A DNA stretch of 35,368 bases from NCBI GenBank assembly GCA_021736985.1, contig JAIPEW010000027.1, positions 1 to 35,368 of the forward strand, given 5' to 3'. Each line of letters starts with the position of its first letter. The first letter of the stretch is position 1. A program made the translations under genes and the position numbers. A model generated the notes under the pieces. It saw only the letters and a list, made by a program, of their open reading frames with translations. It made no database searches and had not been told where the DNA came from. The DNA is from Clostridiales bacterium (GTDB taxonomy: Bacteria > Bacillota > Desulfotomaculia > Desulfotomaculales > VENG01). Shown here piece after piece: positions 408 to 35,368 of this stretch.

Positions 408-465
408 AGCCGCCATTCATCCCCCACCTTCGCCTTCGGCTTAGAGGTGGGGGTCTTCTGGCGGA
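408..465 (+). repeat. Right-end hairpin of the IscB element
   Basis: A stem begins CCCCCACCT at 421 and closes with AGGTGGGGG at 445-453 around an inner CCTTCGG loop. It starts a few bases after the IscB stop. IS200/IS605-like and IscB elements end in such subterminal hairpins, recognised by TnpA. It could also act as a transcription terminator, although no long T-run follows. Confidence 0.6.
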
Positions 466-500
466 ATTTGATAAATATATGGCCTCAAGGAGTGTAAATA

Positions 501-908
501 TTGAAAAAAATATTTCTCTTTTTAATGTTTTTACTAATAGTTATACCTCTAAATGCCAGTGCTTCTCAAGAGCCTCCTGATAGATACCAGGAGGCTTTAA
601 ATATAGCTAACAAAGACTTGGAAGACGTTACTTACCCCGGCTATTTCCAGATGCAAAATATTAACGGCAGACCTTTTAATGAAAATTTATATGATACCCG
701 CACTCTTTTTGTGTACGGCGCACCTTTTGAAGATTTTGAAGGCGGCAATTACCGCTATCTCGGTTATACAATGGAAACTGATGATAAAGAACTAACCCTA
801 TCAGATAAAACCTGGATTTGTAGTTATTGTGGAGTAGAATTAGACCGGGATATAAACGCTGCTATCAATATCAAAAATGAAGGCTGTCACTTGCTTGGCA
901 TAGCCTAA
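501..908 (+). CDS. Chimera: secreted protein N-terminus fused in frame to TnpB zinc-finger tail
   Basis: A TTG start at 501 has an AAGGAG site at 487-492. Residues 1-22 form a signal peptide (KK, a hydrophobic stretch, then ASAS). Residues 23 to about 95 are an acidic-aromatic secreted domain of unknown function with a FVYGAPFEDFEGG segment. From about residue 98 the sequence becomes the C-terminal signature of IS605 TnpB: TLSDKTW, one CxxC of the zinc ribbon (CSYCG), then DRDINAAINIKNEG, which holds the last RuvC aspartate. The natural C-terminus of the secreted protein is missing. The TnpB piece is too short for catalysis and lacks the first CxxC. The fusion frame is open end to end, so a secreted hybrid could be made, but it is more likely a relic of element insertion and deletion. 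Confidence 0.7.
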   Translation: MKKIFLFLMFLLIVIPLNASASQEPPDRYQEALNIANKDLEDVTYPGYFQMQNINGRPFNENLYDTRTLFVYGAPFEDFEGGNYRYLGYTMETDDKELTLSDKTWICSYCGVELDRDINAAINIKNEGCHLLGIA

Positions 909-1303: not shown

Positions 1304-1849
1304 ATGGTTGAATGGGATAACCACAATATTTCTATTGCCAGGCAGGCATATCTGTTAAGTCTTAACCGAACCAGCCTGTATTATAAGCCGGTGCCTCCAT
1401 CACCAAGAGAAACACAAATTAAACACCGTATTGATGAAATCTATACAAAATGCCCGTTTTTCGGTTCCCGCAAAATAACAGTACTTCTAAACAAAGAAGG
1501 CTTTAACATAAACCGTAAAGCAGTACAGCGGCATATGCGAGAAATGGGGATACAGGGCATTACTCCTGGACCTAATCTTAGTAAAAGAAACATCCAGCAT
1601 TACATATATCCTTACTTGTTAAATAACGTAGTAATTAGCCATTCAGACCACGTGTGGGGTATAGATATAACCTATATCCGGCTTCTCCGGGGATGGATGT
1701 ACCTGGTTGCCGTTTTAGACTGGTTCTCACGCTACGTGTTAAGCTGGGAGCTCGACCAGACTCTGAAGATACCATTTGTTTTAGATGCAGTACAACAAGC
1801 CTTATCCCAATCTAAGCCAGTTATTTTTAACAGCGACCAGGGTAGTCAA
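1304..1849 (+). CDS. IS3-family transposase OrfB, 5' exon (interrupted by group II intron)
   Basis: 182 residues of OrfB. An N-terminal HTH_21-type region (SIARQAYLLSLNRTSLYYKP) is followed by the rve integrase core, with the first catalytic Asp in WGIDITYIR and the second in NSDQGSQ. The intron begins immediately after the CAA codon of that last Gln. Joining 1849 to 3975 restores NSDQGSQ|FTSPQYTNLL with no frame change, giving a 268-residue protein of normal length. Unspliced, translation runs into the intron and stops at 1870. The open frame extends upstream to about 1268, so the natural product is probably an OrfAB fusion and not an independent ATG product. Confidence 0.88.
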
Positions 1850-2398
1850 GTGCGACAAGAAGTCGCATGATATATTGCCGAAAGGCTACCCCATCCATTC
1901 GGGGTAACTCTATTGTGACTAGCGTAGATGGTAACGTCTGGGTTAGAAAGCTCACAAGACAATGTGGAAATCCGAGAAGCCTAAATCTGGGATAACTGCT
2001 AGAGTAAGAAAGCTATGGAGAACGTAAAGTGAACCACTGTAGGAATCGTTACTCTGGAGGAAGCGAAATAGGCTGAAACGCTTTGACCAAAATGGTAAGG
2101 AGTCGAGCAAAGGCGAACTGGCTAACCAATGCGAATGGATGAAGAACTCCCGGTTCAAAGGTGGCTCCTAAGGCTTTCACAATTATGTATCATGCGGAAC
2201 TTGGTAAACCCTATATGCTCCTCAAAAAAATGAGGTATCTAACCGCAAGGGAAAGAAACGGCATAGAGGGTAGAAGAAAAGGATAAAAAGCAAACGCTAC
2301 TTTTGTAATGAAAGAAGATAGGGGTTCAAACTTTGCCCTAACTCGAAAGAGTGCTGACTTATCCTATGGTATTTCTTGGCAGGACGGAGTGTAAACCT

Positions 2399-3937
2399 AT
2401 GAATTTTAGTAACTCAACGACGGATAAAACCGAGAGGCTAAAAGACAGAGACACACTAGCTGACCAATGGAAATCCATTGATTGGACGCTGGTGCAAACA
2501 CATGTTAATAGGCTGCAAACTAGAATTGCTAAGGCAACAGTGAAGGGTGACAAGAACAAGGTTAAAAGATTGCAATACTTACTAACACATTCATTCTATG
2601 CCAAAGCCCACGCAGTAAAGAAAGTAACATCAAATAAGGGAAAAAACACCTCTGGGGTAGACAAAAAGCTATGGTCAACCCCAGCTTCAAAGATGAAGGC
2701 GGTATTAGCACTTACTGATAAACACTACAGGGCAAAACCTCTTAGGCGAGTCTTCATTGGAAAAAAGGGTAAAAACAAGAAACGACCGCTGGGAATCCCC
2801 ACCATGTACGACAGAGCCATGCAGACATTGTACGCACTAGCACTTGAACCTGTAGCTGAAACTACAGGGGACCACATTTCTTTTGGCTTTCGTAAGGGAA
2901 GAAGTGCTAAAGATGCCTGTGAACAGATATTTTGTGTACTGGCAAGAAAATGTTCTCCTACATGGATATTAGAAGGAGACATCAAAGGCTGTTTTGATAA
3001 CATTAACCACGGCTGGCTGCAAGATAACATTCCGATGGACAAAAGAATAATGAAGCAATTTTTAAAATCGGGGTTCATATATAAGGGCAACTTATTTCCT
3101 ACGGACATAGGTTCACCACAAGGCGGAGCTATCTCAAGCCTATATGCAAACATGACACTAGATGGTCTTGAAAAACTAATTCAGGATAAATATCATCGAA
3201 ATTCTAAAGGCAAGATAGAAAACCACTATCGAGCAAAGACCAAAGTAAATCTAGTACGATATGCTGATGACTTTATCATTACCGCAAATACAAAAGAAAC
3301 AGCGGAAGAACTCAAAGGTATTGTTAGTAAATTCCTTAAAAATCGAGGGCTAACTCTATCCGATGAGAAAACAATGATCACGCATATAGATGACGGCTTC
3401 GACTTTCTCGGCTGGACATTTCGAAAATTCAAAGGAAAATTAATTGTCAAACCATCAAAGAATTCAATAAAAACCCTGATAAGGAAGTGTGCCACCATCA
3501 TTCTAAAAGAGGGGAAAGCACACAGCCAATCCGAGATAATCCGAAGACTAAATCAAGTGATTAGAGGATGGACCAACTATCACAGACATGTTGTGGCAAG
3601 TCAAGCCTTTTCCTACACAAACAACACACTATATCTATTATTACAACAATGGGCAAAACACCGACACCCCAACAAAAGTAAATGGTGGAGATTGAACAAA
3701 TACTGGCATGAAAAGAATAGAAAGAGATGGTTGTTCATGTCGGATGAATACAGCCTGATAAATCTTAGAAGGATAAACATCATCCGACACCCTAAATTAC
3801 AGATTTCTAAAAATCCCTTTATACACAAAGAATACTTTGTGAAGAGAAAAATGAAATTGAAATCACTGTTTGCCGCCAGAAATGGTGAAGAAATGCTTGA
3901 GCCGTATGAGCGGGAAACTCTCACGTACGGTTCTTAG
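2399..3937 (+). CDS. ltrA: Group II intron reverse transcriptase/maturase
   Basis: I chose the ATG at 2399 (MNFSNSTTDKTERLKD), because the 16 codons before it do not resemble the family and cover intron RNA. The product is about 512 residues. An N-terminal RT0 region (WTLVQTHVNRLQTRIAKA) is followed by the fingers (RPLGIPTMYDRAMQTLYALA), motif 3 (ILEGDIKGCFDNI), motif 4 (GSPQGGAISSLYANM) and the catalytic YADD in LVRYADDFIIT. Maturase domain X/GIIM follows (IIRRLNQVIRGWTNYHRHVV). There is no C-terminal HNH endonuclease (no paired CxxC), so retrohoming would have to prime without second-strand cleavage. The 3' end of the gene overlaps domain V. It promotes splicing of its own intron and target-primed reverse transcription. 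Confidence 0.93.
   Translation: MNFSNSTTDKTERLKDRDTLADQWKSIDWTLVQTHVNRLQTRIAKATVKGDKNKVKRLQYLLTHSFYAKAHAVKKVTSNKGKNTSGVDKKLWSTPASKMKAVLALTDKHYRAKPLRRVFIGKKGKNKKRPLGIPTMYDRAMQTLYALALEPVAETTGDHISFGFRKGRSAKDACEQIFCVLARKCSPTWILEGDIKGCFDNINHGWLQDNIPMDKRIMKQFLKSGFIYKGNLFPTDIGSPQGGAISSLYANMTLDGLEKLIQDKYHRNSKGKIENHYRAKTKVNLVRYADDFIITANTKETAEELKGIVSKFLKNRGLTLSDEKTMITHIDDGFDFLGWTFRKFKGKLIVKPSKNSIKTLIRKCATIILKEGKAHSQSEIIRRLNQVIRGWTNYHRHVVASQAFSYTNNTLYLLLQQWAKHRHPNKSKWWRLNKYWHEKNRKRWLFMSDEYSLINLRRINIIRHPKLQISKNPFIHKEYFVKRKMKLKSLFAARNGEEMLEPYERETLTYGS
3899..3933 (+). ncRNA. Group II intron domain V hairpin
   Basis: The sequence runs GAGCCGTATGAGCGGGAAAC then TCTCACGTACGGTTC. It folds into the conserved domain V stem with GAAA-type tetraloop and opposing GCCGTA/TACGGT arms. 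The catalytic AGC triad is represented by AGC at 3900-3902 or its equivalent. It lies inside the last codons of the maturase gene. Confidence 0.85.
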
Positions 3938-3974
3938 ACGAGGGAAAGGGAGCAATCCCTTTTCTTTAGTCGAT

Positions 3975-4235
3975 TTCACCAGTCCCCAGTATACTAACCT
4001 TTTAAAAGCGGCCGAAGTCAAAATTAGTATGGACGGTAGAGGCTGGGCATTTGATAATATCTTTACAGAACGCTTATGGCGCAATGTCAAGTATGAAGAA
4101 GTATATTTAAATGAATATGCAACCCCACGTATAGCCAGGCAGCGTATTAATGCCTATTTCCAGTTATATAATAACGAACGTCCGCATCAATCGCTGAATT
4201 ATAAGACACCAGCAGAAGTTTATTATCAAAGTTAG
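3975..4235 (+). CDS. IS3-family transposase OrfB, 3' exon
   Basis: These 86 codons complete OrfB after intron removal: FTSPQYTNLLKAAEVKISMD, then the catalytic Glu in FDNIFTERLWRNVKYEEVY, and the usual end NERPHQSLNYKTPAEVYY. The exon carries the third residue of the DDE triad, so neither half alone can be active. In the unspliced reading the frame continues upstream into intron domains V/VI to 3870, but those codons are not protein-like. Confidence 0.88.
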   Translation, partial: FTSPQYTNLLKAAEVKISMDGRGWAFDNIFTERLWRNVKYEEVYLNEYATPRIARQRINAYFQLYNNERPHQSLNYKTPAEVYYQS

Positions 4236-13852: not shown

Positions 13853-14608
13853 TTCGACTATCCACTACATTCAGATAAAAAATTTATCTCCTGCTTTTAA
13901 AAACAATTGTCTTGTGTTTTCATTTATATCCCACTACGTTCAGATAAAACTTCGTGAGTTACTTTCATAATACGAAAGCGTCCTACCTATTTATATCCCA
14001 CTACGTTCATATAAAACCTCCCACTCCCTAAACTTCCTCGGGTACGGATTTTTCTTATTTATATCCCACTACGTTCAGATAAAACGCATCTATCTTTTTA
14101 AACTCTCTACGCACAGCCACATTTATATCCCACTACGTTCAGATAAAACCAGCCAACGGTTTTGGAGATTACTTCCATAAACTAATTTATATCCCACTAC
14201 GTTCAGATAAAACTATTGTCCGCCACATTACACCTTCGCATACCAGCCCAATTTATATCCCACTACGTTCAGATAAAACTATAAGGCAGTTATAAATTGG
14301 GCAAAAAATAAGAAGTTAATTTATATCCCACTACGTTCAGATAAAACGTACCTCATCTGCTTTGTGGCGGGGGCAGTGGTTGATTTATATCCCACTACGT
14401 TCAGATAAAACCAAGATGGCGAGGCCTTGCAGATAAAAGTTAAAAAACATTTATATCCCACTACGTTCAGATAAAACCTGCACACTGTACCGTATAACGA
14501 AATAGAATGGGGCTCATTTATATCCCACTACGTTCAGATAAAACTTTTACTAACGAAGCACGTTCTAATGCATTGATAAATTTATATCCCACTACGTTCA
14601 GATAAAAC
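13853..14608 (-). CRISPR. CRISPR array 1: 11 repeats plus one degenerate repeat
   Basis: The 29-base repeat, read on the minus strand, begins GTTTTATCTGAACG and ends TAGTGGGATATAAAT. Clear copies end at 13950, 14017, 14085, 14149, 14213, 14279, 14347, 14411, 14477, 14544 and 14608 (plus-strand right edges). The copy ending at 14017 has one change. A degenerate copy lies at about 13853-13881, marking the leader-distal end. Spacers are about 34-40 bases. The conserved leader lies to the right, so transcription is leftward and the crRNA 5' handle would be AUAUAAAU. The repeat resembles Clostridium type I-B repeats. The gene cas3 ends about 200 bases to the right. Confidence 0.97.
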
Positions 14609-14805
14609 CCTTTATAAACGCACATCCAAATCCCTTGCCATACACATTATCAAGCGGATTACCGATATTTTATAAATTAACATTACTGCAGTAAACCTTA
14701 AGTTTTATCATTAAGATATTAATTAAATACTCCCTCAAGTCCCACCTCTTCTGGTTTGAGCGGTATTTTTTACTTATTGAAGTTTACTGCAAATTAACAA
14801 TATTA
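14609..14805 (-). promoter_or_regulatory. CRISPR leader 1
   Basis: About 190 bases between array 1 and cas3 match the region beyond array 2 in order and spacing. Shared blocks are TTATAAAC next to the first repeat, GATTACC, GCAGTAAACCTTAAGTTTT (14688 on) and AAGTTTACTGCAAA (14780-14793). The two inverted blocks lie 80 and 174 bases from the first repeat. Conservation in both copies identifies it as the leader, carrying the pre-crRNA promoter and integration signals. Confidence 0.85.
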
Positions 14806-14813
14806 TGTAACTA

Positions 14814-16955
14814 TTACAAAATCAGGCCACTTTTATCTTTATCATTATAATTGTAACTTGAACCTGGAATTCTATAAAGGTTTAACTTTTCATTAATTTT
14901 TTCTTTACCTCTAATCCTTCTGTCCCCTCTTGTATCTGTACTGTAATCCTGAACATTAACTGTTCTCATGTCAATCATTTTTTTTATTTTTCGTTTTTCT
15001 TGCTCAGTTGAAACATCTTGTAGTTGTTGCAGTAAATTCTGTATTTGAGTAAGATAACACTCTGGAACAATATTTATTGTATTCAATTTACGCAACCTCT
15101 TTTGGGCTTCAGCTTTTGGCATAGTATTTTTATAAATATTACTATGCATATCATCCAACCATTTAAGTGTTTCATAAAATTGGGTTAAATAGATTTTATT
15201 TTTCTGTCGCTCAAGCATTTCTTTTGTATAAAGTTTGTTTATCATTTTTACTTTGTCCGATTCTTTTAAATCACGATATTTTTGTAACATTTTAATGCTT
15301 TGATCTATCAGAAAACCATCTTTTACAAAATGCTTCCCTTCTTTATATAGATTTCCGTAGACTGTACCATACCCAGATATATCTTTAACAAAAACATGCA
15401 CATTTATTTTTTCATCTTTCACTGAACGATTACGGTAACAACGACCTAATCTTTGAAATAGTGTGTCTAAAGGAGCAACTTCAGTAAAAAGAAAATCAAA
15501 ATCTATGTCTAAACTAGCTTCAACTATTTGCGTTGTTATCCATATACCCTTATCACCAGAATTACTAAAATCAATTATTTGTCTTTCCAGCTCACTTCTA
15601 TGTTCTCTTGTAAAGTAAGCATGCAAGATATTAACGTTTGTTTCTTTAAATTTATTGTATATTTCAATTGCTCTTTTTACTGTGTTTACAATTACTAAAA
15701 CCTTTCCTTTACTTGATGCTTTTTTAATTTCGTCTACGGCATATAATATAGAACTATCATTCATATTTATGCGGTGCCTAAGTTTATTGTCGTAAATAAA
15801 TTCATCAAAAACAACATCAGGTATTCTATTTGTAATTTCATTTTTATAGATAGTAGGGAGAGTAGCAGTCATAACATAAAATTTTCCACCCATTTTATTT
15901 ATTATTTCTAATCCCTTTATAAGCAGTGCAACTATATCTGGATCATAGGATTGAATTTCATCTACTACAACCTTGGAATAGGTAAGTGTTGCTAATTCTC
16001 TTTCGAATCCTAAATAAAACATTGGGAATTTCATTATTTGATCAATAGTAGAAATAGTTAATTTTTTTGATAAAAGGCGGGACTCTTGATAGATTTTTTG
16101 AAAATTAACTTCATATTCTTCTAAATAATCTAGACTTGTAGAATGTACTAACCCGGTAGAGTTAATCTGCATCTTCTTTGCTCTGTCATAAATTGCGTTA
16201 GAACTTACGCGGATCGGTAATGTAAAAAACATTTTATCTTCTCCAGCCCACAACAAAGCTGATTCTGTTTTCCCAACACCAGTTTGTCCAATTACCATAA
16301 TATTCTTATCCTTATTATTCAGAACAAAATTCTGTAAGTCATTAATTTTTAATCCATTATTTTGCATATATTCAGTGGTTTTTTGGTTAATTGATTCTTT
16401 CCATCCTGTTTCAACATTTAATTCAGCAGAAGCTGCATAATCAATACGCTGGAGTAATCCTTTTAATATAATGTACTGGTCTAAATTTTGTATATTAAGT
16501 GAATTTTTGTTAAGTTTTTTAATACAATCTTTCCTAATTTCAAAATCTATCCCCATTTTTTCCCTTATATATTCTTTTTCTTTTTCTATCTCTTTTAGGT
16601 TATTTAATGTTAATTTTAAATCAAATTCGTGGGAACTACTGTGATGATAAGCTATTGCAAACACTACCATTAACTCTTCTTCAGCACTAAGCCCCAAATC
16701 ACTTCTTAACATACATGAAGATAAATAATTATGGGGCACTTCACCTTCTAACATACGGCGAATATTATTATAAATTCGAATTTGAAATTTTTTACTAGCT
16801 TTTCCAATATCATGATACATGGCTGCTATTTTTAATAATTCAAATAAACGTCTATCAAAATGGTTTTGTAGTATTAGTGATAAATTCTCTGCTTCTTCTA
16901 CTACTTCCAACGAATGTTTTTTTATAGTCTTAATTGGCTTTGTTTTTGCAAGCAA
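14814..16955 (-). CDS. cas3: CRISPR-associated HD nuclease-helicase Cas3 (type I-B)
   Basis: 713 residues from TTG 16955, preceded by AAGGAG; the N-terminus then reads LAKTKPIKTIKKHSLEV, the usual Cas3 opening. The frame extends to 17027 but overlaps cas5. The HD domain is N-terminal: KHSLEV, MYHDIGKASKKF, PHNYLSS and AIAYHHSS. The helicase part has Walker A GQTGVGKTESALLW, the DExH box VVVDEIQSYDP, motif III MTATLPT and motif VI QRLGRCYR. Cas3 is recruited by Cascade at matched DNA, unwinds it 3'-5' and degrades it. It is the last gene of the operon, 25 bases after cas5, and ends at leader 1. Confidence 0.95.
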   Translation of the reverse strand: MLAKTKPIKTIKKHSLEVVEEAENLSLILQNHFDRRLFELLKIAAMYHDIGKASKKFQIRIYNNIRRMLEGEVPHNYLSSCMLRSDLGLSAEEELMVVFAIAYHHSSSHEFDLKLTLNNLKEIEKEKEYIREKMGIDFEIRKDCIKKLNKNSLNIQNLDQYIILKGLLQRIDYAASAELNVETGWKESINQKTTEYMQNNGLKINDLQNFVLNNKDKNIMVIGQTGVGKTESALLWAGEDKMFFTLPIRVSSNAIYDRAKKMQINSTGLVHSTSLDYLEEYEVNFQKIYQESRLLSKKLTISTIDQIMKFPMFYLGFERELATLTYSKVVVDEIQSYDPDIVALLIKGLEIINKMGGKFYVMTATLPTIYKNEITNRIPDVVFDEFIYDNKLRHRINMNDSSILYAVDEIKKASSKGKVLVIVNTVKRAIEIYNKFKETNVNILHAYFTREHRSELERQIIDFSNSGDKGIWITTQIVEASLDIDFDFLFTEVAPLDTLFQRLGRCYRNRSVKDEKINVHVFVKDISGYGTVYGNLYKEGKHFVKDGFLIDQSIKMLQKYRDLKESDKVKMINKLYTKEMLERQKNKIYLTQFYETLKWLDDMHSNIYKNTMPKAEAQKRLRKLNTINIVPECYLTQIQNLLQQLQDVSTEQEKRKIKKMIDMRTVNVQDYSTDTRGDRRIRGKEKINEKLNLYRIPGSSYNYNDKDKSGLIL

Positions 16956-16980
16956 AAGCCTAACTCCTTTTAACCAAATT

Positions 16981-17772
16981 TTATTTAATTGGCAAACAAA
17001 AGAAAACTGGGTTCTTTTCCTCGTCAATTAAAACATCGTCTACTTCACATAATAGTTGACCTTTTTTAACATATCCTGCGTGAATTTTTTCCCATTCTCT
17101 TGTCCCATTAATAACTTGGTATTTCCAGCAAAGAGAATATGGAACATATTTTAAATTTATTTCTTCTGCTTGTTCATGTCGTACATAAAAATTATATTTT
17201 GTTATTATATCTTCTTGGAGCAAATATAAATTAGTTTCTTTTATTTCATCAATTCTTATAAGGTATTCAGCCGCACCAAGAGATAAAAAAGAGCGTTCTT
17301 CAAAAGCTGTTTCAAGTTTTTTTAAAATATTATCTTCTGCCATAACATGTATAATCAAATTTACGTTTTTTAGTGAGTATTTATAGATTGGACTTCTTAC
17401 CATTAAGTCTTTATAATCAACTGGATCATTGCATGGTTTTTCTTTTGTTGTTAATGGTGCTTCCCCTGGAATTTCTTCTCTACCTTTTTTTCCCTTCTTT
17501 ATTTCTTTAGTAACCCTATTAACTTCTCTATTTCTAAATTTATAAAAATAGTGGCTTTGATATTCAAGAAAACTGTATTCATAACCTCCTTGGATAGATA
17601 TATTCATTGGAATATATTCATTAGCATCCATCACAGCATGAAGCATCCCTTTAACTGTAGAAAAGGGTGGTAAAGGGTATGTCTCCCCCACTTTAAAACT
17701 TAAAGGTTTTTTGTAACATGCAGTGTCTTGAAAAACCTTAATCCGTAAAGCCTTCATTTTATGAAACCCCAT
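16981..17772 (-). CDS. cas5: CRISPR-associated protein Cas5 (Cas5t, type I-B)
   Basis: 263 residues. The N-terminal RAMP fold (MKALRIKVFQDTACYKKPLS, then KVGETYPLPPFSTVKGMLHA) is the Cas5 signature. Cas5 caps the 5' handle of the crRNA in the I-B Cascade complex. The C-terminus contains an LGAAEYLIRIDEI segment. I prefer the start at MKALRI (17757), which is typical for Cas5; the ATG at 17772 adds five residues and overlaps cas7 by 14 bases. Translation is coupled to cas7 upstream. Confidence 0.92.
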   Translation of the reverse strand: MGFHKMKALRIKVFQDTACYKKPLSFKVGETYPLPPFSTVKGMLHAVMDANEYIPMNISIQGGYEYSFLEYQSHYFYKFRNREVNRVTKEIKKGKKGREEIPGEAPLTTKEKPCNDPVDYKDLMVRSPIYKYSLKNVNLIIHVMAEDNILKKLETAFEERSFLSLGAAEYLIRIDEIKETNLYLLQEDIITKYNFYVRHEQAEEINLKYVPYSLCWKYQVINGTREWEKIHAGYVKKGQLLCEVDDVLIDEEKNPVFFCLPIK

Positions 17773-18688
17773 AATACGTCTTCACTTCTTTTTTTAAATT
17801 ATCAAAGAAATCTTCCACTGAAATAGGTCCAAGATTGTTTTTTATTTCGTTTTCATTTCCAAAAACACCCGGCACCAAACCTACATTTGTAAAATCATTC
17901 AAGTAAGTATTTTTAATTTTTATATTGAGAGTGCTTTTAATAATCTCTAAATCAAGATTAATCGTTTCAGGGATTAACCTTAATCGTCCATCAAAATAAG
18001 GATTTGCTATTGGATACAGACCACCTATAATAAAAAGTGGGGACATATTTACTGCTCTTCCTTGAATTTCTCTATTTAAAATTTTTACTGCTTCTAAAAA
18101 ATCATTTACACGTTTTGCTTTTTGTTTGGCTTCGATCTCAATTATGCCATCTATGTCTTCATCTTTTTTAGTAACTCCGATCCTGCTTAAATCAGCAGAA
18201 ATTGTATACGCATATAAACTCTTATGATTTTCAATGTTAGCTATATTATTACTAGCACTACACCTTGCAGCCATACCCATGTTAGTTAAATAGTCAATAT
18301 CACCTCGGTACGGTTCAAGCGAAGTTGCATGACTAAGTCTTACAACAGCACTACGTTTTAAAGTCTCGCCTTCTTCTTTTTTTGCTGTTTTCATATAACC
18401 AAACAGATCCATTTCTTCAGACTCTCTAATTGATACGTCACGCTTATACTGAATTACCTTTTTGTCTCCTGAACCTACCGGCTCAACTGTATAATAATTC
18501 CAATCAAACTCTTTAGCTAAAAGTTCCCTTATACTGTATAAGATAGATTGACGCGAAGAATATGAATATGTCTCTCCATTACCTCTTGTAACTTTTTTCA
18601 GTTCTCCCACAGTACCTATTCCTTCTCCATAATTCATTGAATTGCCCTCAAAAATAATCCCTAATGAAAGGGCTTTATTGTTTGCCAT
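17759..18688 (-). CDS. cas7: CRISPR-associated protein Cas7 (Cst2/DevR family)
   Basis: 309 residues starting at ATG 18688 with AAGGAGGATAAG upstream inside the cas8 end (14-base overlap). The N-terminus ALSLGIIFEGNSMNYGEGIG and the following RGNGETYSYSSRQSILYSIR are typical of Cst2/DevR-type Cas7. The middle carries MSPLFIIGGLYPIANPYFDG. Cas7 forms the helical backbone along the spacer part of the crRNA. It is the most expressed Cascade subunit in related systems. Confidence 0.93.
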   Translation of the reverse strand: MANNKALSLGIIFEGNSMNYGEGIGTVGELKKVTRGNGETYSYSSRQSILYSIRELLAKEFDWNYYTVEPVGSGDKKVIQYKRDVSIRESEEMDLFGYMKTAKKEEGETLKRSAVVRLSHATSLEPYRGDIDYLTNMGMAARCSASNNIANIENHKSLYAYTISADLSRIGVTKKDEDIDGIIEIEAKQKAKRVNDFLEAVKILNREIQGRAVNMSPLFIIGGLYPIANPYFDGRLRLIPETINLDLEIIKSTLNIKIKNTYLNDFTNVGLVPGVFGNENEIKNNLGPISVEDFFDNLKKEVKTYYGVS

Positions 18689-20429
18689 TATTCTTATCCT
18701 CCTTACAATTTACTTTTGTCAATAACCCGCCTATAAAAGCATTAGCAATATCATCAAATGAAACATTACTTTCATTAGTAGCCACTTGTGCATTTACAAG
18801 CGATTTGGATATTTCTATTTCGGCATTTATATGTAATCGAAAAACTATATCTAAAAAGTCTTTTCTGTTCCTTGTTTTAGCAGTATTTAATAATTTATAA
18901 ATAACTCCATTTAGTTTGCGATCATCCCACTGTTTGTAACATATTAATATATTCTTAAGCTGTACTGCTTTGCTAAAAATATTATCAAAATCCCGTTTGG
19001 CTTTATTGTTCACCGGATTACCTCCTTTTTTCAAATGATTAATTATAATCTTAGCTTCACAAATATTTTTGTGGTAAAAGTAGAAATTTTCTTTCAAACT
19101 TGCATAAAAAAGTTCATAAATAAGCGGCTGAAAGTCAATTCCTTTCATTATCATAGCAGTAATTCTATTTGAAAATTTAGTATGGATTCTATCTATTTTA
19201 GAAAAATATTTTTCATTACCAAAAAATTTAACCACATAGTCAGGCAAGGTTAATGTTTCTACAGCACTCTTTTTTTCTTGATTATTAGGGTTTGCCCATA
19301 CTTCAACTACTGTAATCTCGTCTTTATATTGCCTTTCTTTTTGGGCTTTTACCCTAATGCTATCTTTTGTACCTTGACTTCTTTTTGAAATATCGTTAAT
19401 AGTTTCTTTTAATGCAATACTGAAATTTTCTTCCCTTTCTTTTTCTTTTATATACTTTATATTAGTTTCATACATTTGACTGAATGGTTCACTAGTTACG
19501 AGAAAACTCCAGGTAGGTCGAATATCTTGCTTTTTCTCGGTTAATTCACTGTAATTATATTCTTTGTTATATTGAGCAGCTCCTAAAGGTACTAAAAGCA
19601 TAATCAATTTGGCCATTGAAGATATCCTAGGCAAGCTATCAGCATTATAATTCCATTGATAGTTTACTGATTCAACTTCTGATATGCCTAATTGAAAAAA
19701 TTCATTATTAGAAAATTTGTATACCCCTGGTAATGAAGGAATAAAAAAACATCTATTAGGACAACTATCAGGATTTTGTATTTCTTCAATAGCTACTTCG
19801 ACAATATTTTGTTTAAACCAGTCTGCATGACTTTTTGTATTTAAATAAGTAGCCTTTACAGCCGGATTTAATAATCCTGATTGCCCTATTATAGGTTTTA
19901 AATATTTACCTCGAATACTTCTAAGTGCAAACTGTTCATTAATAGAAATTTCATCGTCTTTTTCTAATTTTTCTTTTTCCTCCAGATAAGTAATTACTTT
20001 ACGAAGACTTTCTTTAACTAAGTCCGTTATTTGTTTTGCATCCTCTTCGCAACAATTCAAATTACCAGATTTATTAATTATTTTCTTTTTCTTTTCAAAA
20101 ATTTCTGCAAACTCTTCAAGTACTTTTTCTTTGACTTTTGAAAATCCATTTGCATTTTTTTTAATATCATCTCTAAATCTTGTTAGTTTATTGAATTCTT
20201 TTTCCATAAAAATTTCATTATTCAATATTTCTTTAAGTTGAGTGATAGGGTTACGATAATTAAAACAGAGTTTAAAATAATTCTCTGAAACTTTTTTCAT
20301 ATCTTCTGTGTCTACTTCTACCTCGAATTGATTAGGAAAGAAAAACTTATCTTTACTTATTAACCTAATCAATCCAGTAAGACCCATTAAATAAGTCCAG
20401 TCATAAGTTATAGGGAGTTTTATTTTCAT
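18675..20429 (-). CDS. cas8b: CRISPR-associated large subunit Cas8b (Cst1-like)
   Basis: 584 residues from ATG 20429. It starts one base after the cas6 stop and overlaps cas7. The N-terminus (TYDWTYLMGLTGLIRLISK) and the middle segment AKLIMLLVPLGAAQYNKEYN are like Cst1/Cas8b of Tneap-type I-B systems. The CxxC pairs that name the Cst1 family are poorly kept: only NCCEED and SCPNRC appear. The large subunit reads the protospacer-adjacent motif and recruits Cas3. Family assignment is by gene order and these segments, so the subfamily name is less certain than the role. Confidence 0.83.
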   Translation of the reverse strand: MKIKLPITYDWTYLMGLTGLIRLISKDKFFFPNQFEVEVDTEDMKKVSENYFKLCFNYRNPITQLKEILNNEIFMEKEFNKLTRFRDDIKKNANGFSKVKEKVLEEFAEIFEKKKKIINKSGNLNCCEEDAKQITDLVKESLRKVITYLEEKEKLEKDDEISINEQFALRSIRGKYLKPIIGQSGLLNPAVKATYLNTKSHADWFKQNIVEVAIEEIQNPDSCPNRCFFIPSLPGVYKFSNNEFFQLGISEVESVNYQWNYNADSLPRISSMAKLIMLLVPLGAAQYNKEYNYSELTEKKQDIRPTWSFLVTSEPFSQMYETNIKYIKEKEREENFSIALKETINDISKRSQGTKDSIRVKAQKERQYKDEITVVEVWANPNNQEKKSAVETLTLPDYVVKFFGNEKYFSKIDRIHTKFSNRITAMIMKGIDFQPLIYELFYASLKENFYFYHKNICEAKIIINHLKKGGNPVNNKAKRDFDNIFSKAVQLKNILICYKQWDDRKLNGVIYKLLNTAKTRNRKDFLDIVFRLHINAEIEISKSLVNAQVATNESNVSFDDIANAFIGGLLTKVNCKEDKNNGKQ

Positions 20430-20430
20430 A

Positions 20431-21180
20431 TCATACCCCTTCTCTTTCTAGCTCTAGCAAACCAAACCCTTGACTGCGGCGTTTGGAAAGACCTAATTGA
20501 TATAAGGAATTCAGATCTGCAAGCGAACCAGAAATCCCTAAAAGCCCTTTATAAGTAGTATAAAACAATTTTTTCTCTACAACTTGGTTGTCCAAATTGT
20601 TCTCAAAATTACTATTGTTTTCTTTGACTACTTGTTTTTTCATTTCTATTGGAGCTACCGAAAGTGGTTCTACAAGTCCCTCATTTCTATAGTTTTGTAA
20701 AATTAGATCAGCAAAATAATTAACTTGCTTACTATAATCAGATGAATAAGGGGAAACAGGATTCCCATATTTGTCTTCAATTAAAATGGGTGACATTGTT
20801 TTAAAAGTTACTGACCTTGAATATATCTCCTTTTCTCGTATTGGACGAATTCCATTTCTTTTTAAAGTTATATCTCGATATTTAAAATTTTTGCTTTTTA
20901 ATAATCCATTGTACAGATTAAACATAAATTCCTGATCAGGAGAACTAACCGTTACTGATAACTCATCAAGATAAATGTTTTCCCCCTCAATATTAAAATT
21001 GTGCAAATAAGCTGCTGTAACAAAAGGTTTCATCTTTTCTTTTCGCTTTTCAAATATTTTACTGAAATAACTTTCATCAGCTCGTCTAATACTTTCTTTA
21101 ATTATAGACAGCAGCATCATACGATAACTTAAGGGTATCTTTTCAACAGCAAAATCGATTACAAAACGAATTTTCTTTAT
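20431..21180 (-). CDS. cas6: CRISPR repeat endoribonuclease Cas6 (N-terminus includes a non-canonical start)
   Basis: The first ATG in frame is at 21120 and gives 229 residues, but 20 codons upstream of it read KKIRFVIDFAVEKIPLSYR after an ATA, which is exactly the missing first strand of Cas6. The family N-terminus demands a start at ATA 21180 or ATT 21171, and AAAGGGGG lies just before. The C-terminal glycine-rich loop is LGLSKRRSQGFGLLELE, the RAMP signature; a candidate catalytic His lies in FVTAAYLHNF. Cas6 cuts each repeat to leave an 8-base 5' handle on the crRNA. It is the first gene of the operon, 29 bases from the last repeat of array 2. Confidence 0.85.
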   Translation of the reverse strand: MKKIRFVIDFAVEKIPLSYRMMLLSIIKESIRRADESYFSKIFEKRKEKMKPFVTAAYLHNFNIEGENIYLDELSVTVSSPDQEFMFNLYNGLLKSKNFKYRDITLKRNGIRPIREKEIYSRSVTFKTMSPILIEDKYGNPVSPYSSDYSKQVNYFADLILQNYRNEGLVEPLSVAPIEMKKQVVKENNSNFENNLDNQVVEKKLFYTTYKGLLGISGSLADLNSLYQLGLSKRRSQGFGLLELEREGV

Positions 21181-21189
21181 GCCCCCTTT
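21171..21189 (-). promoter_or_regulatory. cas6 initiation site without a standard start codon
   Basis: On the minus strand AAAAGGGGGC is followed by ATA AAG AAA ATT. No ATG, GTG, TTG or CTG in frame lies near the site. If the ATA were ATG the protein would begin MKKIRFVIDF as expected. Confidence 0.6.
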
Positions 21190-21209
21190 TAATAATAATT
21201 ATCTAAATT

Positions 21210-22744
21210 AATATTATCCCACTACGTTCAGATAAAACGAGGGTGGCCCCGGCTTGCACGAGGCTGGGCCTAGCTTTATATCCCACTACGTTCAGATAAA
21301 ACGATTCAAGATATGTTTTACAATATTCTAATCCTAGTTGTCTTTATATCCCACTACGTTCAGATAAAACTGAATAAATGCGAGCTAAAAAAATTTTTAA
21401 AAACTACTTTATATCCCACTACGTTCAGATAAAACTTTTTTTCGGTTACAGTTTGCGGTAATCCATTTAGCCAGCTTTATATCCCACTACGTTCAGATAA
21501 AACAGTTGCCGCCTTGCGCGGCGCTGTCTCCCCGGTGTATCCGCCTTTATATCCCACTACGTTCAGATAAAACTCAAGGTATTCTCTTTAGTAATTTCTT
21601 AACTCCCTTCTTTATATCCCACTACGTTCAGATAAAACGAAAGAAAGTTGAAAAAGAAAACTCTGCTAAACTGCTTTATATCCCACTACGTTCAGATAAA
21701 ACTATTCCTTTACCCATGCTAATTCAATTGTGCCTATCTTTATATCCCACTACGTTCAGATAAAACGATGAGGCGGACAGGAAAATAGACAGCGGAGCTC
21801 TCTTTATATCCCACTACGTTCAGATAAAACGATTGGCGCATAGTGCCACAAAGTTATTAGGGATTATCTTTATATCCCACTACGTTCAGATAAAACGCAC
21901 TGGAAAAAGTCACCGTCTGCACATCATAATCTTTATATCCCACTACGTTCAGATAAAACGAAGGACGCGCCAAGTCCCGATGAATTGGGTATACCTTTAT
22001 ATCCCACTACGTTCAGATAAAACTGCACCACAAACGGGAAACGCTTGGGAACGTGCGCCTTTATATCCCACTACGTTCAGATAAAACTGTAGGCAGGGCG
22101 GCTCTGGATGAATATTTGAGGAATCTTTATATCCCACTACGTTCAGATAAAACCTGTTTTATCGGGTAATATGTGGGCATGGTATCTCCTTTATATCCCA
22201 CTACGTTCAGATAAAACACCTTGGAAATTTATAAGTAAAAGGTTTGCGGATGACTTTATATCCCACTACGTTCAGATAAAACAAAGATTAAATAATGGGA
22301 GTGGACATTTAACCGGTCCCTTTATATCCCACTACGTTCAGATAAAACAAAATATTTTAAAAACGTCTCAGGAATGCGAGTTTACTTTATATCCCACTAC
22401 GTTCAGATAAAACAACGGGATAAAAGTACAACACCGAAGAAGTAAGCACCTTTATATCCCACTACGTTCAGATAAAACTGTGATATTATGGTTTTGTCGC
22501 ATAAATGTCCTATTCTCTTTATATCCCACTACGTTCAGATAAAACTTAAATCTATCCTTCCATTCCTTATCCTTGCCTATCTCCTTTATATCCCACTACG
22601 TTCAGATAAAACTAAGGGTTTATGCGAGCTTTAGAATCATTTAAAAACTAACTTTATATCCCACTACGTTCAGATAAAACAACTGACTGCACTAACCCTT
22701 TTTCTCCTTCTCCCCCTTTATATCCCACTACGTTCAGATAAAAC
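21210..22744 (-). CRISPR. CRISPR array 2: 24 repeats, 23 spacers
   Basis: The 29-base repeat begins GTTTTATCTGAACG and ends TAGTGGGATATAAAG on the minus strand. Copies start (plus-strand left edges) at 21210, 21274, 21342, 21407, 21475, 21545, 21610, 21674, 21738, 21802, 21868, 21931, 21995, 22059, 22125, 22189, 22254, 22320, 22385, 22450, 22517, 22584, 22652 and 22716. The first is degenerate at its outer end (GGGATAATATT) and is leader-distal. Spacers are about 34-41 bases and all differ. The last base is G in every normal copy, against T in array 1. The leader is at the right. Confidence 0.98.
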
Positions 22745-33370: not shown

Positions 33371-33520
33371 CTTGACTTCTCCTCACGGCTAAATCCGGAG
33401 GATTCTTCCTGGTTCATCCTGTCCGGCAATCCGGTACAGTCCCCAGGCTGACACCGCGTGCCCCGCGGCCAAAATCTTTTAACCTGCCAACCTCAATCCT
33501 TCAATTAGAAGGTTTTGGGC
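33371..33520 (-). ncRNA. TnpB omega RNA (reRNA) 3' region and right end
   Basis: In IS605 elements the guide RNA scaffold covers the end of tnpB and the right end of the element, and the guide is read from the flanking DNA. Here the non-coding tail includes CGCGGGGCACGCGGTG- and CCGGATTGCCGG-type stems and ends in the CCTC...GAGG hairpin plus AGTCAA. The guide would start in the flank at about 33370 and below. The 5' limit is an estimate. Confidence 0.6.
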
Positions 33521-34573
33521 GGCGTTCAAATCACGGTCATGGCTTGTGCCGCAGTTAGGGCATACCCATTCCCGCAATGCCAGGTTTTTAACTTCCGGGT
33601 TGCGGTATCCGCAAGCCGAACAAAGCTGGCTGGAAGGAAAAGTTTTGTTGACAGTGACAACTTTTCTGCCGTACCAGCTAGCTTTGTATTCCAACATAGC
33701 TCTAAATTCAGACCAGCCCGCATCTGCGATACTCTTAGCCAGGCAGTGATTCTTTTGCATACCCTGCACCCCTAGGTCTTCCTGGCAGATAGTTTGGTTT
33801 TCACGTACCAGCCTAGTAGACAGTTTGTGCAGGTAGTCCTGGCGGGAGTTTTTAATCTTTTCGTGCAGCCGGGCTACTTTAATGCGGAGTTTCTCCCGGT
33901 TTTTGCTGCCTTTCTTTTTACGTGACAGCTTGCGTTGTAGTTTTTGAAGTTTACGCTCATACCTGCGATAGTATTTAGGGCCGGGAAAGTGCTCTCCTGT
34001 TGATGTTACGGCAAAATCTTTAATCCCCAGGTCTACACCCGTGTTTTGAAATACTATCGGCAGGGGTTGTATGTCTACATCGCACAAGATAGAGATAAAG
34101 TTTTTCCCGGTTGGTGACCGGCGCACTGTTGCCGATAGTATTTGTCCTTCTATTTCCCGCGACTTGGCGAACTTAACCCAACCCAATTTGGGAAGCATAA
34201 CAAAGTTGTCCTTCACCTGGATGCTGTGACCGTTGGCATTGGTGCGGTAGCTCTGCTTGGGGTGTTTTTTACTCTTGAACTTCGGAAACCCGTTGTTTTT
34301 CCGGAAGAAGTGCTTGTAGGCGCTGTCCAGGTCTTTTAAGGATTGCTGCAGCGCCATGGAATCTACTTCTTTTAACCAGGGCAGTTCTTTTTTTAGCCCG
34401 GTTAACTCTTTACAGCACCCAGAATAATTGAGGCTTTTAGCTTCTTCTTGGTATAACTGTATTCGCCGGTTGAGGAAGTGATTATAAACATACCTGCAGC
34501 ATCCGATTGTCTTATTGATAAGTGTTGTTTGTTCTCCGGTTGGGTATAAGCGGAATTTGAATGACTTATGCAA
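33479..34573 (-). CDS. tnpB: RNA-guided endonuclease TnpB
   Basis: 364 residues from TTG 34573 with AAGGTG 7-8 bases upstream. The N-terminal wedge/REC opens with [20 protein letters not shown]. The RuvC residues are [13 protein letters not shown] (Asp), [12 protein letters not shown] (Glu) and [13 protein letters not shown] (Asp), with a zinc ribbon CSACGYRN and CPNCGTSH between the last two. All catalytic and zinc residues are present, so it is probably active. TnpB with its omega RNA cuts DNA next to a short target-adjacent motif and helps keep the element at its site. Confidence 0.95.
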
Positions 34574-34576
34574 AGC

Positions 34577-34972
34577 TTACACCTTCTTTTGGTTTTCAAT
34601 GTACTTTTTAATGTCTTCTAATGGTGCCCCGCCAACTGTTGATACAAAATAGCTATTTGTCCAGAGACTTGGAAGCCTGCTTTTTAGCCAGGGAAACTCT
34701 TCTCGTAGTATTTTTGATGATATGCCTTTAATATGCTTAACCAGGCGGTGAATGCCAAATTGCGGGTCTACCTCTACCAGTAGATGCACATGGTCGGGCA
34801 TAATTTCTAACTCTAAGGCTTCTGCTTCCTTTTCAGTGAGAACTTGGTTTATTAAATCTCTTAAACGATTATCTACACCATTTACAAGCACTTCACGCCG
34901 GTATTTGGGACACCATACAACATGGTATTTACAAGAGTATACAATATTGCGGTTTGATTTATAATTTTTCAT
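34577..34972 (-). CDS. tnpA: IS200/IS605 transposase TnpA (Y1 HUH)
   Basis: 131 residues. It opens SNRNIVYSCKYHVVWCPKYR, has the HUH motif in EIMPDHVHLLVEVDP and the nucleophile Tyr near the end in EDIKKYIENQ. It excises and inserts the element as single-stranded DNA using end hairpins. No ribosome binding site stands directly before ATG 34972; a GGTGAAGG lies in the loop of the left-end hairpin 23-30 bases upstream. Confidence 0.96.
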   Translation of the reverse strand: MKNYKSNRNIVYSCKYHVVWCPKYRREVLVNGVDNRLRDLINQVLTEKEAEALELEIMPDHVHLLVEVDPQFGIHRLVKHIKGISSKILREEFPWLKSRLPSLWTNSYFVSTVGGAPLEDIKKYIENQKKV

Positions 34973-34974
34973 AA

Positions 34975-35007
34975 TTTAATTATACAGCCTTCACCTGTAT
35001 AATTAAA
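34975..35007. repeat. IS605 left-end palindrome
   Basis: TTTAATTATACAG (34975-34987) and CTGTATAATTAAA (34995-35007) form a perfect 13-bp stem with a 7-base loop directly before tnpA. It probably serves as the TnpA binding hairpin and may also fold in the tnpA message. Confidence 0.8.
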
Positions 35008-35028
35008 GGATAATTTTTACTAAAACAG

Positions 35029-35045
35029 GCCGGGTTTTGCCCGGC
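35029..35045. terminator. GC hairpin between omega-RNA element and IS605 element
   Basis: GCCGGG-TTTTG-CCCGGC, a 6-bp GC stem. On the minus strand it follows the omega-RNA element and is followed by CTGTTTTAG. It may be a weak terminator. Confidence 0.45.
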
Positions 35046-35050
35046 GCGCC

Positions 35051-35368
35051 TTATATCCCTACACCTAAAGGCGAGGGCTTTACGGCGCTTTTGGTAAATC
35101 TCCTTTTGAAGATAAGTCAGCCCTAAAAGGCTGTCGGTCCACTTCGCCAATGTTGCTCCGGGTTTTCACCGGCGGCACTCCGCCTAACCCTGTAGCGGGT
35201 TTTAACCACCGGTCGCAGTCAGGGGACGAGTGGAGTATCCCCTGGTGACCTATATCATTCCGGGCAACGTAGCACTCGAAGTGCTTAGGCTAATCAACCG
35301 GGCTTGCAGCGTTACTCCTGCAAGCCCCCACTTCAAGCCCCGTTAGGGGCTAAGTGGGGGTAGTTGAC
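35051..35368 (-). ncRNA. HEARO/omega-RNA-like element without an IscB gene (5' end at or beyond window edge)
   Basis: Read leftward it has a CCCCCACTT/AAGTGGGGG stem (35325-35360), CTTGCAG/CTGCAAG (35303-35324), AGCACTTCGAGTGCT (35271-35285), then a CAGGGGATACTCC ... GTCCCCTGACTGCGACCGG core. This core follows the same order as known IscB omega RNAs (GGGAT, CC, GTCCCC, GACTGC, CGG). The RNA ends in AAAAGGAG (35100-35107), the ribosome binding site that normally precedes IscB, but only about 23 bases later comes a right-end hairpin (CCCT-CGCCTTTAGGTGT-AGGG, 35057-35077). No nuclease gene lies between. The assignment is from the remembered consensus and needs a covariance-model search. Confidence 0.6.

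Follow-up and report, generated by a model that had tools for sequence, protein, structure and literature searches.

A complete HEARO omega RNA next to a nested IS200/IS605 element in a probable iscB-element remnant of a Clostridiales bacterium

Introduction

HEARO RNAs (Rfam RF02033), the omega RNAs of the IscB nucleases, are known to occur without an accompanying open reading frame from earlier work on HEARO and IscB. One such locus, L022 (G006:C50:4504-4723), is found in the same order as the bacterium studied here, so a HEARO without an adjoining iscB is not new. The L022 HEARO scored 151 bits and is located between a cpaF-like and a tadB-like (pilus-type) gene, and no match to IscB was found in its host genome. 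IS200/IS605 elements of the IS608 type are characterized by a Y1 transposase TnpA, the nuclease TnpB, subterminal hairpins, insertion 3' of TTAC and a right end closing with ..GTCAA. IS608 itself has TTAC as its target (PMC8612924).

The DNA analyzed here, referred to as the window, is the whole of contig C36 (35,368 nucleotides) of a 65-contig draft genome. The window ends exactly at the first base of a minus-strand HEARO that, like the ORF-less HEARO RNAs, is without a neighbouring iscB, but differs from these in that a nested insertion and a deletion account for the absence, and in that the right end is missing. Of the two loci, L022 makes the stronger case for an RNA-only HEARO; the one in the window is an ordinary nested insertion. 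An initial annotation of the window had proposed here an OMEGA element that is non-autonomous, consists of RNA only and carries its own right-end hairpin.

Results and discussion

Table 1. Features of the omega RNA locus, the nested IS element and the opposite contig end
Feature	Position	Strand	Evidence
HEARO (IscB omega RNA) scaffold, complete	35133..35368	-	Rfam RF02033 match, fold, identity to other left ends
iscB leader with SD, ending TTTAC (IS605 target/insertion site)	35094..35132	-	aligns with five relatives' iscB leaders
IS200/IS605-family tnpA-tnpB element, inserted after TTTAC	33372..35093	-	both ends homologous to relatives' copies
IS605 left-end hairpin, outer stem GCGCC...GGCGC	35046..35088	-	comparison with relatives' left ends
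tnpA, Y1 transposase of the IS605 element	34577..34972	-	PF01797 1.4e-43; NF033573
tnpB, RNA-guided nuclease of the IS605 element	33479..34573	-	NF038281 2.9e-169
tnpB-to-right-end region, including the right-end hairpin; reRNA of TnpB expected here	33372..33478	-	end matches relatives
3'-terminal part of another iscB copy, truncated at the contig end	3..407	+	70% identity to L050 IscB C-terminus
True iscB-element right end, CCGCC..hairpin..GGCGGAATTTG, then ATAAAT	408..475	+	five copies at five contig ends

The presence of an IscB/HEARO guide RNA on the minus strand, as initially annotated, was confirmed by the covariance-model search that had been proposed along with it. The HEARO model matched the window in full length (model positions 1-211) with 108.3 bits, above the gathering cut-off of 83, and an E-value of 1.3e-21. 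The stretch folded with a minimum free energy of -111.9 kcal/mol (z -5.76), and none of 200 shuffled sequences was as stable. Over its first 138-199 nt it shared 97-100% identity with six further left ends of this genome. The RNA proper stops at 35133, and the bases from 35132 to 35051 belong to the iscB leader and the left end of the IS605 element. The left end of the iscB element coincides with base 1 of the HEARO. In the six other HEARO copies, every one at a contig end, base 1 is immediately preceded by a unique flank, and the 5' guide and true left flank of the window copy lie beyond the end of the contig.

The DNA around the junction (35368-34975) was used as a query against 113 genomes of the class. 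Matches from the relatives formed two sets, dividing at window position 35098/35097. In the HEARO-side set (L050, L051, L052, L026/L057 and L025) the omega RNA was followed by a leader up to the Shine-Dalgarno sequence and then by the ATG or GTG start codon of iscB. The second set began at TTAC (35097-35094) and spanned CAAAAGCGCCGTAAAGCCCTCGCCTTTAGGTGTAGGGATATAAGGCGC, and several of its copies ran on into tnpA. More than 12 copies of this left end in the relatives start at TTAC, and the DNA upstream of TTAC is mutually unrelated among them. The split at TTAC places the IS605 element of the window between the Shine-Dalgarno sequence and the start codon of iscB. The continuity of leader and TTTAC was judged from the relatives, as the assembly of the window's own genome holds no intact iscB leader. 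Compared with the iscB elements of the relatives, the window copy is alike in its full-length model match and in its leader with Shine-Dalgarno sequence, and differs in the interposed IS605 element and in the lack of a following iscB.

The ribosome-binding site that had been assigned to iscB, AAAAGGAG at 35107-35100 on the minus strand, was thereby upheld, with TTTAC following at 35098-35094. The right-end hairpin claimed 23 bases beyond it fared less well. A stable hairpin does exist there, its outer stem beginning 11 bases and its inner stem about 22 bases 3' of AAAAGGAG, but it forms the left end of the IS605 element and not a right end of the HEARO element.

All the features of an IS200/IS605 element were found in the inserted DNA: a Y1 tnpA, a tnpB, hairpins at the ends and insertion 3' of a tetra- or pentanucleotide target. 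Its right end, ..GAATCC..GAGGAGAAGTCAA (closing with ..GTCAA) at 33372, resembles those of three copies in genome G025 and of L099. Compared with IS608-type elements it is unremarkable, apart from having landed in an iscB element. By analogy with ISDra2, from which the role of the reRNA is taken (PMC8612924), a TnpB reRNA is expected at the 3' end of the element, with the right flank beyond it (GCAAAATGG..., from 33371 downwards) as its predicted guide. The DNA from tnpB to the right end is single-copy in the genome and the right flank is unique, and both junctions of the IS605 element are therefore unambiguous assembly paths.

The absence of the nuclease gene from this locus, also noted in the initial annotation, was borne out. 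No iscB was found on the minus strand past the IS605 element in a tblastn search of two IscB proteins against the window, where only the region 3-407 matched; an iscB is thus not present 3' of the omega RNA as it would be in a complete iscB element. Likewise, no iscB right end was found downstream of the HEARO, the only one in the window being the plus-strand copy of Table 1. The right flank GCAAAATGG is slightly similar to the start of iscB and may hold a few iscB codons, with a likeness that ends after about 10 bases and is too short to judge.

The iscB tail at the opposite contig end had been recognized correctly, as it matches L050, which is an IscB by NCBIfam; it lies on the other strand from the HEARO. 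Directly downstream is one of five iscB right ends of the genome, CCGCC..CCCCCACCTT..GAGGTGGGGG..GGCGGAATTTG, all located at contig ends. The hairpin CCGCC..CCCCCACC..GGTGGGGG..GGCGGAATTT was present in all five, with ATAAA one base later in each. No intact iscB was found in the genome: the contigs hold only 3' ends, and the 5' two thirds of the gene, in no contig, were presumably dropped from the assembly as a collapsed repeat.

Joining of flanks across the missing elements restored a HepT-like ORF (C9-C58), a 302-codon frame (C52-C52), and a Shine-Dalgarno sequence and start (C1-C21). From these three joined pairs, the iscB element would extend from GTCAAC to GGCGGAATTTG, and ATAAA is likely the target-adjacent motif of the iscB elements in this genome. 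In a flank count that was itself deduced from the draft assembly, six left flanks stand against five right ends, leaving one left flank unpaired, which fits five complete iscB elements and one broken copy, that of the window. The window HEARO, which has no left flank of its own, must belong with one of these six. The left end on contig C35 is identical to the window HEARO over 139 nt and is the sole identical one without a right-end partner; for these reasons C35, from its position 140 on, is likely the continuation of the window beyond HEARO base 1. Contig C52 (G000; L010, L005) carries the halves of one iscB insertion at its two ends and is probably circular, a 71-kb plasmid or phage in which the collapsed iscB element closes the ring.

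Several other features of the window were observed. An ORF at 501-908 (+) has a signal-peptide-like start and ends in a fragment of a TnpB zinc ribbon (PF07282, 1.9e-7); it was read as a 3' remnant of tnpB fused in frame to another gene. Two pieces resembling a single transposase lie within 1304-4235 with a group II intron between them, the intron containing a reverse-transcriptase-like ORF (2351-3937) and Rfam matches at 1887-2023 and 3897-3974. Two CRISPR arrays with nearly the same repeat (CRISPR-DR43) and slightly different repeat scores were found within 13922-22744, with an apparent type I cas gene set between them on the opposite strand.

Outside the genome, a search of plasmids gave no HEARO-iscB element, only tnpA/tnpB-type matches and short weak ones, and a scan of viral contigs gave four more distant IscB loci. 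Genome G010 (L032, L047; 340 contigs) contained 17 HEARO and 24 IscB matches, many of them incomplete, and is a case of strong expansion of iscB elements.

The locus very probably represents an ordinary iscB element reduced to its left part, with an IS605 element nested in the leader and with iscB and the right end lost. An iscB (OMEGA) element would have inserted at this site, of which the left end, the omega RNA and the leader with its Shine-Dalgarno sequence remain. An unrelated IS200/IS605 element would then have inserted 3' of TTAC, between the Shine-Dalgarno sequence and the iscB start codon. A deletion, which we infer from the absence of both the iscB gene and the element right end beyond the IS605 element, would have removed these parts before or after the IS605 insertion.

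The order of these events bears on a variant in which iscB was lost before the IS605 element arrived, so that the insertion struck a remnant of HEARO, leader and a few further bases. The unique right flank could be a trace of such a shortened iscB start, and a single copy cannot reveal the order of insertion. However, no homologue of the shortened form was found, and the flank aligns with iscB over about 10 bases at most, which makes this order rather unlikely. Far less probable is an assembly chimera, in which a multi-copy HEARO was misjoined to the IS605 element. The genome is a draft in which every HEARO copy sits at a contig end, but neither the IS605 element nor its right flank is repeated in the genome, which leaves one read path from the left end, and HEARO and IS605 sequences meet precisely at the target TTAC inside an iscB leader. 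The least probable reading, to which we give hardly any weight, is the RNA-only OMEGA element of the initial annotation, relying on IscB and TnpA in trans. It agrees with a complete HEARO that lacks an adjoining iscB in a genome with other iscB copies, and with HEAROs in relatives that also stand without iscB, such as L022. Its supposed right-end hairpin GCGCCGTAAAGCCC..GGGATATAAGGCGC, however, is the conserved left end of tnpA-tnpB elements, found in many genomes with unrelated flanks and starting at TTAC. The five right ends of the iscB elements in the same genome are different from it, and nothing like them follows the HEARO. A truncated remnant of an iscB element, without its true right end, accounts for the locus instead.

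Implications

Because its right end is missing, the remnant should no longer be mobile by TnpA. The intact omega RNA scaffold could be transcribed from the left flank together with its own guide, as a putative RNA. As five other iscB copies exist in the genome, IscB from these copies might possibly bind the orphan omega RNA in trans. That the RNA is expressed with its guide and, with IscB in trans, continues a putative cleavage of the broken element's empty site is improbable.

The locus calls for caution, as a hairpin beside an omega RNA can instead belong to the terminus of an adjacent IS605 element, and both ends of a proposed RNA-only OMEGA element therefore need to be checked against independent copies. 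The genome offers a compact example of nesting between two RNA-guided IS families.
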